The notes below the pieces were generated by a model, which ran no database searches, was not told where the DNA came from, and saw only the letters and a list, made by a program, of their open reading frames with translations. From NCBI GenBank assembly GCA_020628865.1, contig JAHDEJ010000004.1, positions 99,374 through 163,373 on the forward strand: 64,000 bases of DNA, in the 5' to 3' direction. Each line of letters starts with the position of its first letter. Within the stretch, counting starts at the first letter, position 1. Below are positions 7,474-14,829 of the stretch, piece by piece. The stretch comes from Acidimicrobiales bacterium. Lineage in GTDB: Bacteria > Actinomycetota > Acidimicrobiia > Acidimicrobiales > SHLQ01. Both the position numbers and the translations under genes were made by a program.

Positions 7474-8376
7474 ATGCCAGAGAAGAAGCACGACGGAGTG
7501 TTCATCACGTGTGCGGTCACCGGTGGCGGCGCCACCACCCACAAGTCCGACAAGGTGCCGGTCACCCCGGAGCAGATCGCAAACTCGTGCATCGAAGCCG
7601 CCAAGGCCGGCGCAGCGATCACCCACGTTCACGTGCGTGAAGACGACGGCTCCCCGTCCCGAGACATCGGCAAGTACGCCGAGGTCGTCGAACGGGTCCG
7701 CGACTCCGACACCGACGTCGTCCTCAACCTCACCGCAGGTATGGGTGGCGACATCGTCCTCGGCGGCGTCGAGAGCCCACTGCCGCCGTCCGCCGACGGC
7801 ACCGACATGGTCGGCGCAACCGAACGGGTGGAACACGTCCGTCAGCTCAAGCCCGAAATCTGCACGCTCGACTGCGGCACGATGAACTTCGGCGAAGGCG
7901 ACTACATCATGACCAACACGCCGAGCCAGCTCGAGGAGATGGCGAAGCAGATGACCGAGATCGGCACGCGCATCGAGATCGAGGCGTTCGACACCGGCCA
8001 CCTTGCGCACGCCAAGGACCTCGTGCGTCGCGGCATCATCCCCGACCCGGTCATGGTGCAGCTGTGCATGGGCATCCCGTGGGGCGCCCCCGACGACCTC
8101 AACACGTTCATGGCGATGCGCAACAACATCCCTGACGACTGGACGTTCTCGGCCTTCAGCATCAGTCGGAACCAGATGAAGTACGTCTCGCTCGCAGCCA
8201 TGGCCGGCGGCAACATCCGTGTCGGTCTCGAGGACAACATCTACCTCGACCGCGGTGTGCTTGCCACGAACGGCGATCTCGTCGAGCGGGCCGTCACCAT
8301 CCTCGACGCGCAGAACTACACCATCCTCTCGCCCCAGCAGGTCCGCGAGAACCTTCAGCTCACCAAGCACGGCTGA
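7474..8376 (+). CDS. Beta-keto acid cleavage enzyme (BKACE, DUF849), probable dehydrocarnitine cleavage
   Basis: 300-residue TIM-barrel enzyme of the Kce/BKACE family. Zinc ligands are visible as His51 and His53 in the motif THVHVRED and Glu253 in VGLEDN. Family members condense a beta-keto acid with acetyl-CoA, giving acetoacetate and a new acyl-CoA. Beside carnitine dehydrogenase the likely substrate is 3-dehydrocarnitine, giving betainyl-CoA. ATG preceded by AGGAG with 6-nt spacing. Twenty-two nt separate it from the dehydrogenase, so the two are co-transcribed. I see no dedicated betainyl-CoA thioesterase nearby. Confidence 0.88.
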   Translation: MPEKKHDGVFITCAVTGGGATTHKSDKVPVTPEQIANSCIEAAKAGAAITHVHVREDDGSPSRDIGKYAEVVERVRDSDTDVVLNLTAGMGGDIVLGGVESPLPPSADGTDMVGATERVEHVRQLKPEICTLDCGTMNFGEGDYIMTNTPSQLEEMAKQMTEIGTRIEIEAFDTGHLAHAKDLVRRGIIPDPVMVQLCMGIPWGAPDDLNTFMAMRNNIPDDWTFSAFSISRNQMKYVSLAAMAGGNIRVGLEDNIYLDRGVLATNGDLVERAVTILDAQNYTILSPQQVRENLQLTKHG

Positions 8377-8398
8377 CCCGGAGCTTCAGGAGAACGAC

Positions 8399-9445
8399 GT
8401 GAGTGAATCAGCAGAGTCGACCGAGCGAAGCGAATCGCCGATTGCGGGAGTGGGAGTTGACTTCGAGATCACCTCCGTCTCCCGCGCCGCCGTGGTCGGT
8501 TGCGGCGTCATCGGTGCCGCCTGGGCGAGCCGGATGCTCCTCAACGGCGTCGATGTTGCGATCAGCGACCCGAACCCCGATGCCGAGGCGATCCTCACCG
8601 AGGTGCTCGCCAACGCCGTGGCCGCCTACGACGATCTCGGTCTGCGAACCGACCGGCAGGGCAGCTACCGCATCGCAAGCTCGATCGCCGACGCGGTGGC
8701 CGACGCCCAGTTCATCCAGGAGAGCGTGCCGGAGCGGCCCGACGTGAAGGCGGCAGTACTGGCGCAGATCGAGGCGGCCGCACCCACGGACACGATCATC
8801 GGGTCGTCCACGTCAGGTATCAAGCCGTCGACGATGCAGGCCACGATGACCAACCCCGAGCGACTCGTCGTTGGTCATCCGTACAACCCCGTGTACCTGC
8901 TGCCGGTCGTCGAGGTCGTCGGTGGCGAACACACACCGATCGAGGTCGTCCGCAAGGCGCAGGGCATCTACGCGGGCATCGGCATGAAGCCGATCCACGT
9001 CCGGGTCGAGATCGACGCGTTCGTCGGTGACCGTCTGCTCGAAGCCGTCTGGCGCGAAGCGCTCTGGCTCGTGAACGACGGTGTCGCCACCACGCAGGAG
9101 ATCGACGACATCATGACGCACGGCTTCGGCCTTCGTTGGGCCCAGATGGGTCTGTTCGAGACGTACCGCGTCGCCGGTGGTGTGGGCGGATTCCGTCACT
9201 TCGTCGAGCAGTTCGGTCCGACTCTCGACTGGCCGTGGACGAAGCTGATGGACACGCCTGACTTCACCCCGGAGCTCGTGGACACCCTCGTCGAGCAGTC
9301 GGATGATCAGTCCGGCGAGTACGACGTCCGCGAGCTCGAGCGGATCCGCGATCGCAACGTCGTCGGCTTCCTGAAGGTGCTCGAACAGAACGACTGGGCC
9401 GCCGGCACGACGATCAAGCGGGTTCGAGACGCCGGGAGCGACTGA
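8399..9445 (+). CDS. Probable L-carnitine dehydrogenase (3-hydroxyacyl-CoA dehydrogenase family)
   Basis: 348 residues. Rossmann motif GCGVIGAAWASRML near residues 35-48, then the 3-hydroxyacyl-CoA dehydrogenase N- and C-terminal domains (SSTSGIKPSTMQ; VVGHPYNPVYLLPVVEVVGG). This HPYNPVYLLP motif and the 300-350 aa length fit L-carnitine 3-dehydrogenase, which oxidises L-carnitine to 3-dehydrocarnitine with NAD+. The start is the GTG at 8399, set by AGGAG six bases upstream (8388-8392). The larger open frame upstream overlaps BKACE and is a shadow. Together with BKACE this is the known two-step entry to aerobic carnitine breakdown. Confidence 0.85.
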   Translation: MSESAESTERSESPIAGVGVDFEITSVSRAAVVGCGVIGAAWASRMLLNGVDVAISDPNPDAEAILTEVLANAVAAYDDLGLRTDRQGSYRIASSIADAVADAQFIQESVPERPDVKAAVLAQIEAAAPTDTIIGSSTSGIKPSTMQATMTNPERLVVGHPYNPVYLLPVVEVVGGEHTPIEVVRKAQGIYAGIGMKPIHVRVEIDAFVGDRLLEAVWREALWLVNDGVATTQEIDDIMTHGFGLRWAQMGLFETYRVAGGVGGFRHFVEQFGPTLDWPWTKLMDTPDFTPELVDTLVEQSDDQSGEYDVRELERIRDRNVVGFLKVLEQNDWAAGTTIKRVRDAGSD

Positions 9446-10686: not shown

Positions 10687-11325
10687 TCAGGGTCGTTCGC
10701 CGAAGTCCGGTCCGACGGTTCGGGTGCGCTTGAGCTCCCAGAAGCCGTCCATCGTTGCCATGGTGACCATCGCATCCCAGAGCGCAAGGCCTTCCTCGCC
10801 TTCCGGCTTGCGGGAGATCACGGGGCCAAAGATTCCCTTGCGGCCCTCCGGGCTGTCAAAAGCGATGATCGGTGTTCCCACGTCGTCGCCGACGAGCGCC
10901 AGGCCGGCATCCATCTTCTCGCGGATGACTGCATCCCAGGATTCGTCGTCGAACGCTGCGGCATGGCTCGTGTCGATCCCGGCAGCTTCGAGGAACGGCG
11001 ATGCGCCGCCGGTCATGACCGCATCCATGTCGGCGTCGCCGGTTGTCCGGTCGTGGTGCAGAACCGAACCGAACTCCCAGTAGAGGGCCTGCGCGGCGGC
11101 CATGCCCTCGGTGGCCTTCACGGACTCGAACACCCGCAGCAATTTGTGGGTGAAGTTCACCGGCGGGAAGTAGTCGGAGTCTTCCGGCGGCTTGTTCTTG
11201 AACAACAGACTGATCGGCTGCCACGTGATGTTGAGATCACGTTCCGGCTCCACAACGTCGACGACCCAACGGGCCGTCATCCAACACCAGGGTCAAATGG
11301 GGTCAATCCAGAATTCGATGTCCAT
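10687..11325 (-). CDS. Selenocysteine-containing DsbA-fold oxidoreductase, Rv2466c (mycothiol-dependent nitroreductase) type
   Basis: 212 residues if TGA at 11295-11293 is read as selenocysteine. The N-terminus is then MDIEFWIDPI-Sec-PWCWMTARWV, matching the FWFDPLCPWCW thioredoxin-like active site of Rv2466c-type proteins with Sec11 in place of the nucleophilic Cys and Cys14 as partner. The rest (VGTPII, FFELKRTRT-like FWELKRTRT end) is typical of that family, which reduces substrates with mycothiol. Starting at Met 11280 instead would remove the active site. A hairpin with a GUU loop (11278-11260) begins 14 nt after the TGA, as in bacterial SECIS elements. AGGG precedes the ATG at 11325, and a strong terminator follows. 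Confidence 0.85.
11260..11278 (-). promoter_or_regulatory. Bacterial SECIS-like hairpin of the DsbA-fold selenoprotein
   Basis: On the minus strand, GACGGCCC (11278-11271) pairs with GGGTCGTC (11267-11260), 8 bp including one G-U, around the loop GTT. It starts 14 nt after the TGA at 11295-11293, and the loop begins 23 nt after it. A G followed by U at the loop start fits the bacterial SelB-recognised element. Confidence 0.7.
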
Positions 11326-11439: not shown

Positions 11440-12162
11440 ATGACCGTTCAGAGCGTCGATCGGGCGCTCGCACTGCTCGCAATCCTCGGGGACCGACCCG
11501 GCGGCCTCGCGGACGTGTCGACGAGGGCCGAGCTGCCGCTCAGCACAACGTCGCGACTGCTGGACACGCTCGTCGTCGGCGGTGCTGTCGAACGTGGCCC
11601 GGATGGCCTCTTCCGAATCGGGCCGCTCGTCCATCGGCTCGGAGCGGCGTCCTCGACCTCGACCGCGTCGATCGAGTCCCGTGGCGCCGAGACGGTGGCC
11701 GCCCTTGCGGACGAGCTCGACGAAGCGGCCTGCATCTCGGTGCCCATCGGGTCCGAGACGCTCACGATCATGCAGATCGCCGTTCCCAAACCGGTGCAGG
11801 CACAGAACTGGACTGGGCATCGCTGGTCGATCACCGGTGGAGGCTCAGGGGCCGTGATGATGTCGACCTGGCCGACCAGTCGGGTTGAACCGCTCCTGGC
11901 TGCGCTCGACGAACACGAGCGAACCTCGGTGCGCAAGGAGATTCAGAAGGCCCGGCGTACCGGTGTGAGCTGGAGTCACGGCACGTACGTCGAGGGGCTG
12001 TCGAGTGTGGCGGCTCCGATTCTCGATGCGGATGGCATCGCCGTCGCCGCCGTCCTGGGCTACGGCCCGACCTACCGATTCCCCGGAAAGGGAAACGTGC
12101 AATCCGTTGCGGCCGCGGTTGCAACAGCCGGCGCAGAGATCACCCGTCGATTGGAGACGTGA
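11440..12162 (+). CDS. IclR family regulator coupled to an MttB-family gene
   Basis: 240 residues: helix-turn-helix at about 5-65 (SVDRALALLAIL, ADVSTRAELPLSTTSRLLDTL) and an IclR effector domain (SVAAPILDADGIAVAAVLGYGPTYR). The stop overlaps the start of the methyltransferase gene (TGATG), so the two are translated together. This implies the regulator senses a substrate or product of that enzyme. It is the second IclR protein within 6.5 kb. The ATG at 11440 is chosen because the HTH begins at once; the open frame upstream belongs to a shadow. Confidence 0.88.
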   Translation: MTVQSVDRALALLAILGDRPGGLADVSTRAELPLSTTSRLLDTLVVGGAVERGPDGLFRIGPLVHRLGAASSTSTASIESRGAETVAALADELDEAACISVPIGSETLTIMQIAVPKPVQAQNWTGHRWSITGGGSGAVMMSTWPTSRVEPLLAALDEHERTSVRKEIQKARRTGVSWSHGTYVEGLSSVAAPILDADGIAVAAVLGYGPTYRFPGKGNVQSVAAAVATAGAEITRRLET

Positions 12163-13679
12163 TGGCCAGACGAGGACGAGCTCGATCGACGGCGACGGAG
12201 CCCCGGATCCGCCAGCTGCCCTGGCGACAGGTCAAGAACCCCCATGGCACGCTCCCGATCCTCGATCGCGAAGGGGTGGAACGCATCCACGAAGCATCGC
12301 TGCGTGTGCTCGAGGAACTGGGCATCGAGCTGTGGAGCGAGGACGCCCGCAAGCTGTTTGCCGACGCCGGAGCGACTGTGGACGGCGAGGTCGTTCGAGT
12401 CGGACGGGAGGTCATCGAAGAGGCCCTTCGCACGGCACCGAGCGAATTCACGCTGAGCGCCCGAAACCCGGACAAGGTCATCACCCTCGGGGGCAACAAC
12501 CTCGTCTTCGGTCTCGTCGCCGGACCACCGGCCGTGCACGACGAGATCAACGGTCGCCGGCCATCGAACATGGACGACTACGAGCAGTTCATTCGGCTGG
12601 CCCACTACTTCAACGCCGTCCACATCATCGGCAACCAGGTCGCCGCGCCGATGGAACTTCCGGCCAACAACCGGCATCTCGACACCTACCGCGCCAACCT
12701 CACCCTCTCGGACCTGAGCTTTCACTGTTTGGCCATCGGGCGCGGCCGAGCGCTCGATGGCATCGAGATGATGGCCATCAGTCGGGGCATGACCGTCGAA
12801 CAGATGAAGGACTCGCCCGGCGTCATCACCGTGATCAACGTGAACTCGCCTCGACGGTTCGACGAGGAGATGGCCAACGGCCTGATGACGATGGCCGAGC
12901 ACGGCCAGGCCGTTTCGGTCACGCCATTCACGCTGATGGGAGCGATGACCCCGGTGACACTCGGCGCCGGCCTCGTCCAGCAGAACGCGGAGGCGCTGTT
13001 CGGCATCGCCCTCACGCAACTGACGAACCCCGGTGCACCCGTGGTCTACGGGTCCTTCACGAGCAATGTCGACATGCGTTCGGGCGCGCCCGCCTTCGGC
13101 ACGCCCGAACACGCGAAGGCGAATGTGGCCAGCGGTCAGCTCGCCCGGCGCTACGGGCTGCCGTACCGGTCGTCCAACTCGAGTGCATCGAATACGGTCG
13201 ACGCGCAGGCGGCATACGAAACGCAGATGTCGCTCTGGGGATGTGTGCTCGGTGGCACCAACCTGATCTACCACGCCGCCGGATGGATGGAAGGTGGGCT
13301 CCAGGCCAGCTACGAGAAGTTCATCCTCGATGTGGAGATGCTCCAGCACATGATGGAGTTCTTGACGCCGATCGATCTGAGCCAGGACGAGCTCGCCTTC
13401 GACGCGATGCAGCGGGTGCCGACGGGAGGCCACTTCTTCGGCGATGAACACACGCTCGCCCGATACGAGAACGCGTTCTACTCGCCCATGCTGTCCGACT
13501 GGCAGAACCACGGTGCCTGGGTGGAATCCGGCGCCAAGAATGCGACCGAGCGAGCGACCGCACTCTGGCAGACCGCCCTGGACGACTACGCCGAACCGCC
13601 GATGGACGACGCCATCCGCGACCAACTCGACGACTACGTCGCCCGCCGCAAGGAACAGATCGGCGATGGCGATCCCTGA
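12162..13679 (+). CDS. Trimethylamine methyltransferase (MttB) superfamily protein, non-pyrrolysine
   Basis: 505 residues covering the whole MttB fold (HEASLRVLEELGIELWSEDARKLFADAGA near the start; typical family length is about 500). Members transfer a methyl group from quaternary or tertiary amines (trimethylamine, glycine betaine, carnitine, proline betaine) to a corrinoid protein. There is no in-frame TAG, so it is of the non-pyrrolysine branch. No corrinoid protein or corrinoid methyltransferase gene is in the window. GGAG five bases before ATG 12162 supports that start over the GTG at 12159. The adjacent butyrobetaine/carnitine genes suggest a quaternary amine substrate. Confidence 0.88.
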   Translation: MARRGRARSTATEPRIRQLPWRQVKNPHGTLPILDREGVERIHEASLRVLEELGIELWSEDARKLFADAGATVDGEVVRVGREVIEEALRTAPSEFTLSARNPDKVITLGGNNLVFGLVAGPPAVHDEINGRRPSNMDDYEQFIRLAHYFNAVHIIGNQVAAPMELPANNRHLDTYRANLTLSDLSFHCLAIGRGRALDGIEMMAISRGMTVEQMKDSPGVITVINVNSPRRFDEEMANGLMTMAEHGQAVSVTPFTLMGAMTPVTLGAGLVQQNAEALFGIALTQLTNPGAPVVYGSFTSNVDMRSGAPAFGTPEHAKANVASGQLARRYGLPYRSSNSSASNTVDAQAAYETQMSLWGCVLGGTNLIYHAAGWMEGGLQASYEKFILDVEMLQHMMEFLTPIDLSQDELAFDAMQRVPTGGHFFGDEHTLARYENAFYSPMLSDWQNHGAWVESGAKNATERATALWQTALDDYAEPPMDDAIRDQLDDYVARRKEQIGDGDP

Positions 13680-13685
13680 GCCCGA

Positions 13686-14225
13686 TCAGCCGGCGGCTGC
13701 GCCGATAAGATCGGAAAGCGACGGCGTGTTCGGGAGCTGGAAGAGGAAGTAGCGCTTCCCGCCGATCTTCGTTTCTGCGTGCGGACCATCGAGCACTCGC
13801 AGCGCGGGCGGTGCGCCGCCCGGGAGCTTGTCGACCAGCGTTGCGGAGGCGAGCTCGTGTGCGGGAACCGTCATGTTCGCCTTGTGCTGAATCGCCTGCC
13901 GGCCCTGCGCGTCGTAGATCTCCAGATTCGTGCCGATCTCCTGGCGGAACTTCTCGAGGATCTTGTCGCCGGCGATCGCCCCCAACCCCGATCCGGCCAC
14001 GGTGGTGACGTCGAGCGGTGCAACGAACCGTCGCTCATACGGGTTGTTCGGGTTCATCCCATTGGCTGCCATCCCGAGCGCCAGGTAGTCCGGACTCCAG
14101 TGCGCTCCGCCCGGCCCAACCCTGGTGAAGTGCGCCGACGCCCCCTCGAGTTCGACCACGAAGGTGTGGGCCATGCTGGTCATCCCTTTCTTCCAGCCCA
14201 CGAGTGCGGTTCGCATGTCGGTCAT
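13686..14225 (-). CDS. Conserved-looking hypothetical protein
   Basis: 179 residues, not recognised. It has no signal peptide and no strong membrane segment. Features are a Gly/Ala-rich middle (TTVAGSGLGAIAGDKILEKF) and a C-terminus that reads like a beta-sandwich (AETKIGGKRYFLFQLPN). The start at 14225 has AAGGA five bases upstream; further upstream the open frame has no ribosome site. It converges on the methyltransferase gene with a 6-nt gap and is divergent from the glutathione peroxidase gene, with 145 nt between. No function is proposed. Confidence 0.7.
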   Translation of the reverse strand: MTDMRTALVGWKKGMTSMAHTFVVELEGASAHFTRVGPGGAHWSPDYLALGMAANGMNPNNPYERRFVAPLDVTTVAGSGLGAIAGDKILEKFRQEIGTNLEIYDAQGRQAIQHKANMTVPAHELASATLVDKLPGGAPPALRVLDGPHAETKIGGKRYFLFQLPNTPSLSDLIGAAAG

Positions 14226-14344
14226 TTGATTCCTTCCCGCCGTCGCCCACCGCGACGTGCCATGCCATCGTCCCGTGCAACTCGGTGCGTGGTCTGGCCA
14301 CCTGGCGCCAAATGCCACGATTTCTTCGCGGGGAACCAAGCGAG

Positions 14345-14370: not shown

Positions 14371-14829
14371 ATGAACTTCCACGAACTCACGATGGAGTCG
14401 ATCACCGGTGAATCGATCGACTTCTCCTCCTATGCCGGGCAGCACTGCCTGATCGTCAACGTCGCGAGTCGTTGAGGCGCCACGCCGCAGTACGCAGGTC
14501 TGCGTACCCTCCACAACGATGTCGACGGACTCACCGTCCTCGGGTTTCCGTGCAACCAGTTCGGCGGGCAGGAGCCCGGAACGAATGCGGAGATCCTCGA
14601 GTTCGCCACCTCGAACTATGACGTCAACTTTCCGATGTTCGCGAAGATCGATGTGAACGGCGACGCCGAGGCCGAGCTCTACACGATGCTCAAGGCGGCC
14701 CAGCCCGGGGACATCGGATGGAACTTCGAGAAGTTCCTCGTCGATGGCGACGGCAACGTGGTCGCCCGGTGGGGCACCGGCGACACCCCCGAGGCGATCG
14801 GCGAGCAGCTTCCCTCACTCATGGGCTGA
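14371..14829 (+). CDS. Selenocysteine glutathione peroxidase
   Basis: 152 residues with Sec35 encoded by TGA 14473-14475. The context VNVASR-Sec-GATPQYAGL matches the glutathione peroxidase active site, and the family tetrad is complete: Sec35, Gln67 in FPCNQFGGQEPG, Trp117 and Asn118 in GWNFEKF. The frame stays open on both sides of the TGA, and family motifs continue, so this is not a decayed gene. A hairpin beginning 14 nt after the TGA (14490-14507) has the SECIS-like loop GGTC. The enzyme would reduce hydroperoxides, probably with thioredoxin or mycothiol systems. The stop overlaps the convergent cyclodeaminase-like gene by 11 bp. Confidence 0.88.
14490..14507 (+). promoter_or_regulatory. 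Bacterial SECIS-like hairpin of the glutathione peroxidase
   Basis: GTACGCA (14490-14496) pairs perfectly with TGCGTAC (14501-14507) around the loop GGTC. The stem starts 14 nt after the TGA and the loop 22 nt after it. A loop opening with GG and a U fits the SelB-binding consensus. The spacing is the same as in the selenoprotein at 10687-11325. Confidence 0.75.

Follow-up and report, generated by a model that had tools for sequence, protein, structure and literature searches.

A predicted selenocysteine-containing GPX4-like peroxidase and a UPWC selenoprotein neighbour in an Acidimicrobiales bacterium

The locus described here raises the question of whether a TGA that interrupts a glutathione peroxidase (GPx) gene of an Acidimicrobiales bacterium is a stop or a codon for selenocysteine (Sec) and, if the latter, how the resulting enzyme would work. 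The gene lies on the forward strand at 14371..14829 of the window, i.e., the whole 64,000-nucleotide stretch of DNA that was analysed. It begins with ATG at 14371 and ends with TGA at 14827-14829; the sole internal stop is the TGA at 14473-14475 (forward strand), residue 35 of a predicted 152-amino-acid selenoprotein. This codon occupies the peroxidatic position and starts the sequence UGAT, an instance of the UxxT motif. The read-through protein matches the Pfam GSHPx family (PF00255) over residues 3-108 (E 7.2e-39, 132 bits versus the gathering threshold of 27), and its match to GPx structures spans residues 3-150. The earlier note on this DNA had put the TGA exactly on the catalytic residue of a GPx with no other stop and with Gln67, Trp117 and Asn118 intact, in a high-GC actinobacterium. 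The coordinates and the frame are correct, the source belongs to the Acidimicrobiales, and neither residue 35 (U or C) nor the three other residues vary among 25 aligned sequences.

The fold was predicted by AlphaFold from the window protein, with the Sec position entered as Cys, together with 24 relatives. The model (pLDDT 92.7) has a thioredoxin-like GPx fold. Its best matches in the PDB are all GPx proteins (poplar GPX5, Schistosoma GPx, human GPX8, GPX4 and GPX7), with TMq values of 0.93 to 2p5q and 2v1m and 0.91 to GPX4, and TM of about 0.9 to GPX4, GPX7 and the Schistosoma GPx.

The earlier note had called bacterial Sec-GPx known but uncommon. The first part stands; within this lineage the second does not, since exactly one internal TGA is present in the GPx match of 55 of the 397 genomes of the order and of all 17 genomes of the family that have a match, namely, all nine genomes of the same genus (the one studied here included) and all eight others. 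The alignment with Cys- and Sec-containing GPx that the same note had proposed as a check placed the TGA at residue 35 in all 30 loci fetched from the 55 genomes and, codon by codon, in 42 of 42 TGA loci examined (37 distinct downstream sequences), while the other 68 GPx homologues have a Cys codon at this position. In 396 genomes sampled across the phylum, UGA-GPx was found in 6 of the 28 genomes of the order with a GPx match and in none of the 48 genomes with a match outside it. Downstream of the TGA, pN is 0.08-0.12 versus pS of 0.49-0.77, which means that the part beyond the "stop" is under protein-level selection. A sequencing error, or a pseudogene ending at 14475, is thus ruled out, its probability being negligible, by the recurrence of a single internal TGA in 55 genomes, its location on the catalytic codon wherever examined, the purifying selection past it, and the SECIS conservation and Sec machinery described below, even though TGA also serves as an ordinary stop codon here, in a genome where selD, the MttB gene and the GPx gene itself all end with it. 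The UGA in the GPx gene is genuine.

The machinery that would decode such a codon, which the earlier note had suggested looking for elsewhere in the genome, was found: tRNA-Sec with anticodon tca (65.1 bits, Rfam cut-off 47), selA (380 bits, cut-off 268), which adjoins selB (298 bits, cut-off 242), and selD (365 bits, cut-off 125). With tRNA-Sec and selB both present, the objection foreseen in that note, a complete genome with neither of them, does not apply. Across the order, tRNA-Sec was detected in 52 of the 55 genomes with UGA-GPx versus 184 of the 342 others (Fisher P 5e-10, a value computed over related genomes that are not independent). The three genomes with UGA-GPx and no tRNA-Sec are fragmented MAGs, and two of them have a SelB-like match (one over the cut-off, the other short); no SelB-like match was found in five comparison genomes negative for tRNA-Sec. 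In total, tRNA-Sec is present in 236 of the 397 genomes, far more than have Sec-GPx, and other selenoproteins must therefore maintain the trait in the order.

A separate observation concerns selD of the same genome, which has an in-frame TGA (L020 1531-1533) at its catalytic Cys, in the motif GAGUGCK, and is thus a third selenoprotein gene. Its hairpin scored low in our scan; by eye, an 8-bp hairpin, TGGCGCAC-GTG-GTGCGCCA, can be recognized, with a loop G at +34.

Directly past the UGA, the GPx gene reads GGCGCCACGCCGCA-GTACGCA-GGTC-TGCGTAC. The latter part forms a bSECIS-like hairpin (14490..14507, forward strand; +15 to +32 after the UGA) with a perfect 7-bp stem and an apical-loop G at +22. 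The hairpin core, GCAGGUCUGC, is found in E. coli fdhF too, and so is the decamer GCAGGTCTGC, which in that gene forms the apical portion of the SECIS. SECIS-like hairpins with a score of at least 14 were found in 36 of the 37 distinct UGA GPx genes versus 2 of the 68 Cys genes. Codons +5 to +10 (CAG TAC GCA GGT CTG CGT) show near-zero synonymous variation in UGA genes, whereas the same codons of Cys genes vary by ca. 1-2 bits at most sites; pS of the codons flanking the element in UGA genes is 0.44-0.83. Judged from the single sequence, the hairpin is unlikely only to a moderate degree (an equally good one is reached by 0.66% of synonymous recodings), and the weight of the argument therefore rests on the cross-species comparison. 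Searched for across the whole genome, the GPx SECIS core gave 7 matches, one being GPx itself, no more than the 7 of the reversed control. A scan of the window for further UGA genes yielded 21 candidates over the score threshold, selected by score only, and both the GPx gene and the neighbouring gene considered below were among them.

Recoding of the GPx UGA as a residue other than Sec (Trp, or Cys by suppression) has in its favour that homologues have Cys at this position, so that an inserted Cys would also function. Such recoding is very improbable given the tRNA-Sec with anticodon tca, SelB and the SECIS-like hairpin; moreover, the UGA genes are devoid of the resolving cysteine (CysR) that a Cys enzyme normally needs. 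As judged from these sequence features, UGA codon 35 is almost certainly read as Sec.

The earlier note had also taken the gene at 10687-11325, beside GPx, as a sign of a working selenoprotein system, and this agrees with what was found. The gene (10687..11325, reverse strand) codes for a putative second selenoprotein of the Rv2466c-like family with a DsbA fold (PF22234, E 1.5e-34; PDB 5xur, 3e-33). The predicted protein starts with MDIEFWIDPI-U-PWCW, i.e., has a UPWC active site, its U corresponding to the in-frame UGA at 11293..11295 (reverse strand). A bSECIS-like hairpin, GACGGCCC-GTT-GGGTCGTC, is located at 11260..11278 (reverse strand), with an apical-loop G 23 nt past the UGA. By itself, this hairpin is not significant (9% of synonymous recodings give an equally good one), and its support therefore comes from compensatory changes across species: one base pair is seen as GC, AU, CG, GU and UA, and 97.5% of cells are paired versus at most 58% in slid controls. 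At 29 of 30 Rv2466c-like loci the TGA is present; the remaining one (L151) has a Cys codon. Of the order's genomes, 83 have the gene with one TGA among the matches listed, and 77 of these have tRNA-Sec. UGA-GPx and UGA-Rv2466c occur together in 39 genomes (P 2e-18, related genomes again not being independent). With tRNA-Sec, selA, selB and selD in the genome and SECIS-like hairpins in both genes, a working selenoprotein system is supported.

Between the two selenoprotein genes lie an IclR-family regulator (11440..12162, forward strand), an MttB-superfamily methyltransferase gene (12162..13679, forward strand), which has no in-frame TAG and is therefore of the non-pyrrolysine type, and an ORF with no family match between MttB and GPx (13686..14228, reverse strand). 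The order Rv2466c-like, IclR, MttB, GPx is conserved in part of the genus (G328, G027, G145 and G376), and in two genomes (G171 and G196) the two selenoprotein genes are close together without MttB. Elsewhere in the window, at 7474-9445, a gene for a beta-keto-acid cleavage enzyme precedes one that resembles carnitine 3-dehydrogenase (479 bits, cut-off 592); with the IclR and MttB-family genes at 11440-13679 nearby, this suggests carnitine or betaine breakdown.

In a tree of 105 sequences, all 37 UGA GPx copies form one group (SH-aLRT 99), which takes in Acidimicrobiales, Myxococcota and gammaproteobacteria, and transfer of UGA-GPx between phyla is possible. Since the UGA copies are monophyletic, the association of Sec with a missing CysR counts as one evolutionary event and not as 37 independent ones. 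Descent of the bacterial Sec-GPx and the animal GPX4-type Sec-GPx from one Sec-containing ancestor, as opposed to independent gains, would fit the absence of CysR from both, and a tree constrained to a joint clade was not rejected (p-AU 0.68 and 0.87). The free tree, a quick search with two animal sequences and ca. 157 columns, placed the animal GPx nearest to Cys-GPx, and in a phylogeny from 2005 at least some members seemed to have evolved independently (PMC1088965); common ancestry is, in our estimate, improbable.

How would the enzyme complete its catalytic cycle? Of the 68 Cys GPx homologues, 67 have the resolving Cys; the UGA copies examined all lack it, the site being taken by Ala, Val or some other non-Cys residue. 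The one exception among the Cys homologues is an archaeal (Poseidonia) Cys-GPx (L091) with Thr at this site. In the window protein, Ala occupies the resolving-Cys site of the EIxxFC motif (EILEFATSNY), which sets it apart from 2-Cys (thioredoxin-type) CysGPx. Human GPX4 and the Schistosoma GPx likewise have Ala/Val at the CysR site, and the window protein further resembles these animal enzymes in its active-site Sec, QEP motif, WNF and monomer-like fold; it differs in that its gene has a bacterial SECIS inside the coding region. Where GPX4 has Lys48 and Lys135, the window protein has Ala37 and Gly116. With no resolving Cys in the UGA copies, the selenenic acid form of Sec-GPx is probably resolved by an external or small thiol.

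The genome, which is ca. 96% complete, has an MshA-like match (398 bits, cut-off 462), far over other glycosyltransferases, and an MshC-like match (428 bits, cut-off 485) to a protein that scores 340 with the cysteinyl-tRNA ligase model, both matches thus being under the curated NCBIfam cut-offs. The MshC-like gene adjoins a separate, longer ORF (514 aa) that resembles true cysS, the pair lying at L162 102-2658, and a place near it gives a weaker match to the MshC model (287 bits). No glutathione synthetase over the cut-off was found in the genome, the best match having 73 bits versus 299. From the presence of MshA-like and MshC-like genes and the lack of a clear glutathione synthetase, we infer that mycothiol is the likely reductant of Sec-GPx, and "glutathione" peroxidase is probably a misnomer as regards the reductant here.

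The usual thioredoxin route in GPx proceeds through an intramolecular disulfide formed via the resolving Cys. This route is removed from every UGA copy examined by the missing CysR, which speaks against the same Sec enzyme being reduced not by mycothiol but by a protein thiol, whether that of thioredoxin or, by way of a redox relay, that of a protein-Cys substrate. Several reductants, thioredoxin included, have been described for bacterial GPx (PMC8614756), and we regard a protein thiol as an unlikely reductant, though one to be reckoned with. Reduction by mycothiol matches the description of actinobacterial Cys-GPx as mycothiol peroxidases (PMC9241694). These CysGPx-like MPx enzymes of Corynebacterium and Streptomyces share with the window protein the actinobacterial GPx family and a likely mycothiol context; they are, however, Cys-based (C38, C66 and C84 in S. 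olindensis), unlike the window protein, with its Sec35 and no resolving Cys (PMC9241694).

Taken together, the comparative sequence data lead us to the reading, with a probability of roughly 0.88, that the locus encodes a monomeric GPX4-like Sec-GPx that would be decoded through SECIS and SelB and would probably depend on a small thiol, mycothiol being the likeliest, for resolution. The hairpin at +15 to +32 would direct SelB and Sec-tRNA-Sec to decode UGA codon 35; within the site made up of Sec35/Gln67/Trp117/Asn118, the selenol would reduce hydroperoxides to alcohol or water and become selenenic acid; mycothiol would convert the latter to Se-S-mycothiol, and a second mycothiol or a mycoredoxin-like protein would reduce this adduct. 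The UPWC Rv2466c-like neighbour would be a natural candidate for the last step. Of its closest known counterparts, Rv2466c and NCgl2478 of the mycothiol-dependent DsbA-Mrx1 cluster, the C. glutamicum protein NCgl2478 draws on MSH/Mtr for the electrons with which it reduces S-mycothiolated disulfides (PMC8280269); the window neighbour differs from both in having Sec for the first active-site Cys, and UxxC DsbA-like selenoproteins are already known (PMC13188914, a 2026 review). Sec decoding, the GPx fold, the catalytic residues and the missing resolving Cys are strongly supported by the sequence comparisons; mycothiol as the reductant, the role of the neighbour and the peroxide activity of Sec-GPx are what we infer from them.

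Reports of bacterial Sec-GPx that combine UxxT with a bacterial SECIS date from 2005 (PMC1088965) and 2008 (PMC2398784), and the 2026 review lists such proteins in a table (PMC13188914). Bacterial Sec-GPx has thus been known since 2005 at the latest, and here it is a conserved lineage in Acidimicrobiales. The reported proteins have in common with ours the PF00255 family, Sec in UxxT and a SECIS just past the UGA; they are metagenomic sequences or table entries, whereas here a complete decoding genome is at hand, along with a clade that extends across Acidimicrobiales families, Myxococcota and gammaproteobacteria and in which CysR is systematically missing. A literature search for Acidimicrobiia linked to Sec-GPx found no report; in a study of sponge symbionts, most symbiont bins, which came from various phyla, had SelA/SelB (PMC5649159). 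A search for a characterised Sec-GPx of Alkaliphilus led to a single paper, on the genome of Clostridium sticklandii.

A selenium-dependent mycothiol peroxidase and a UPWC de-mycothiolating partner may constitute a two-selenoprotein peroxide-defence module of presumably aerobic Acidimicrobiales, in which Sec would have been traded for the resolving Cys as in animal GPX4; we offer this as a tentative proposal that has somewhat less than an even chance of being right. In many Acidimicrobiales genomes, standard ORF calling would truncate the Sec-GPx gene. A multi-selenoprotein lineage is documented here in Acidimicrobiales, an order for which no such report was found in the literature. It has been proposed that Sec makes CysR unnecessary (PMC8614756), and the occurrence of bacterial Sec together with a missing resolving Cys makes this link testable outside animals.
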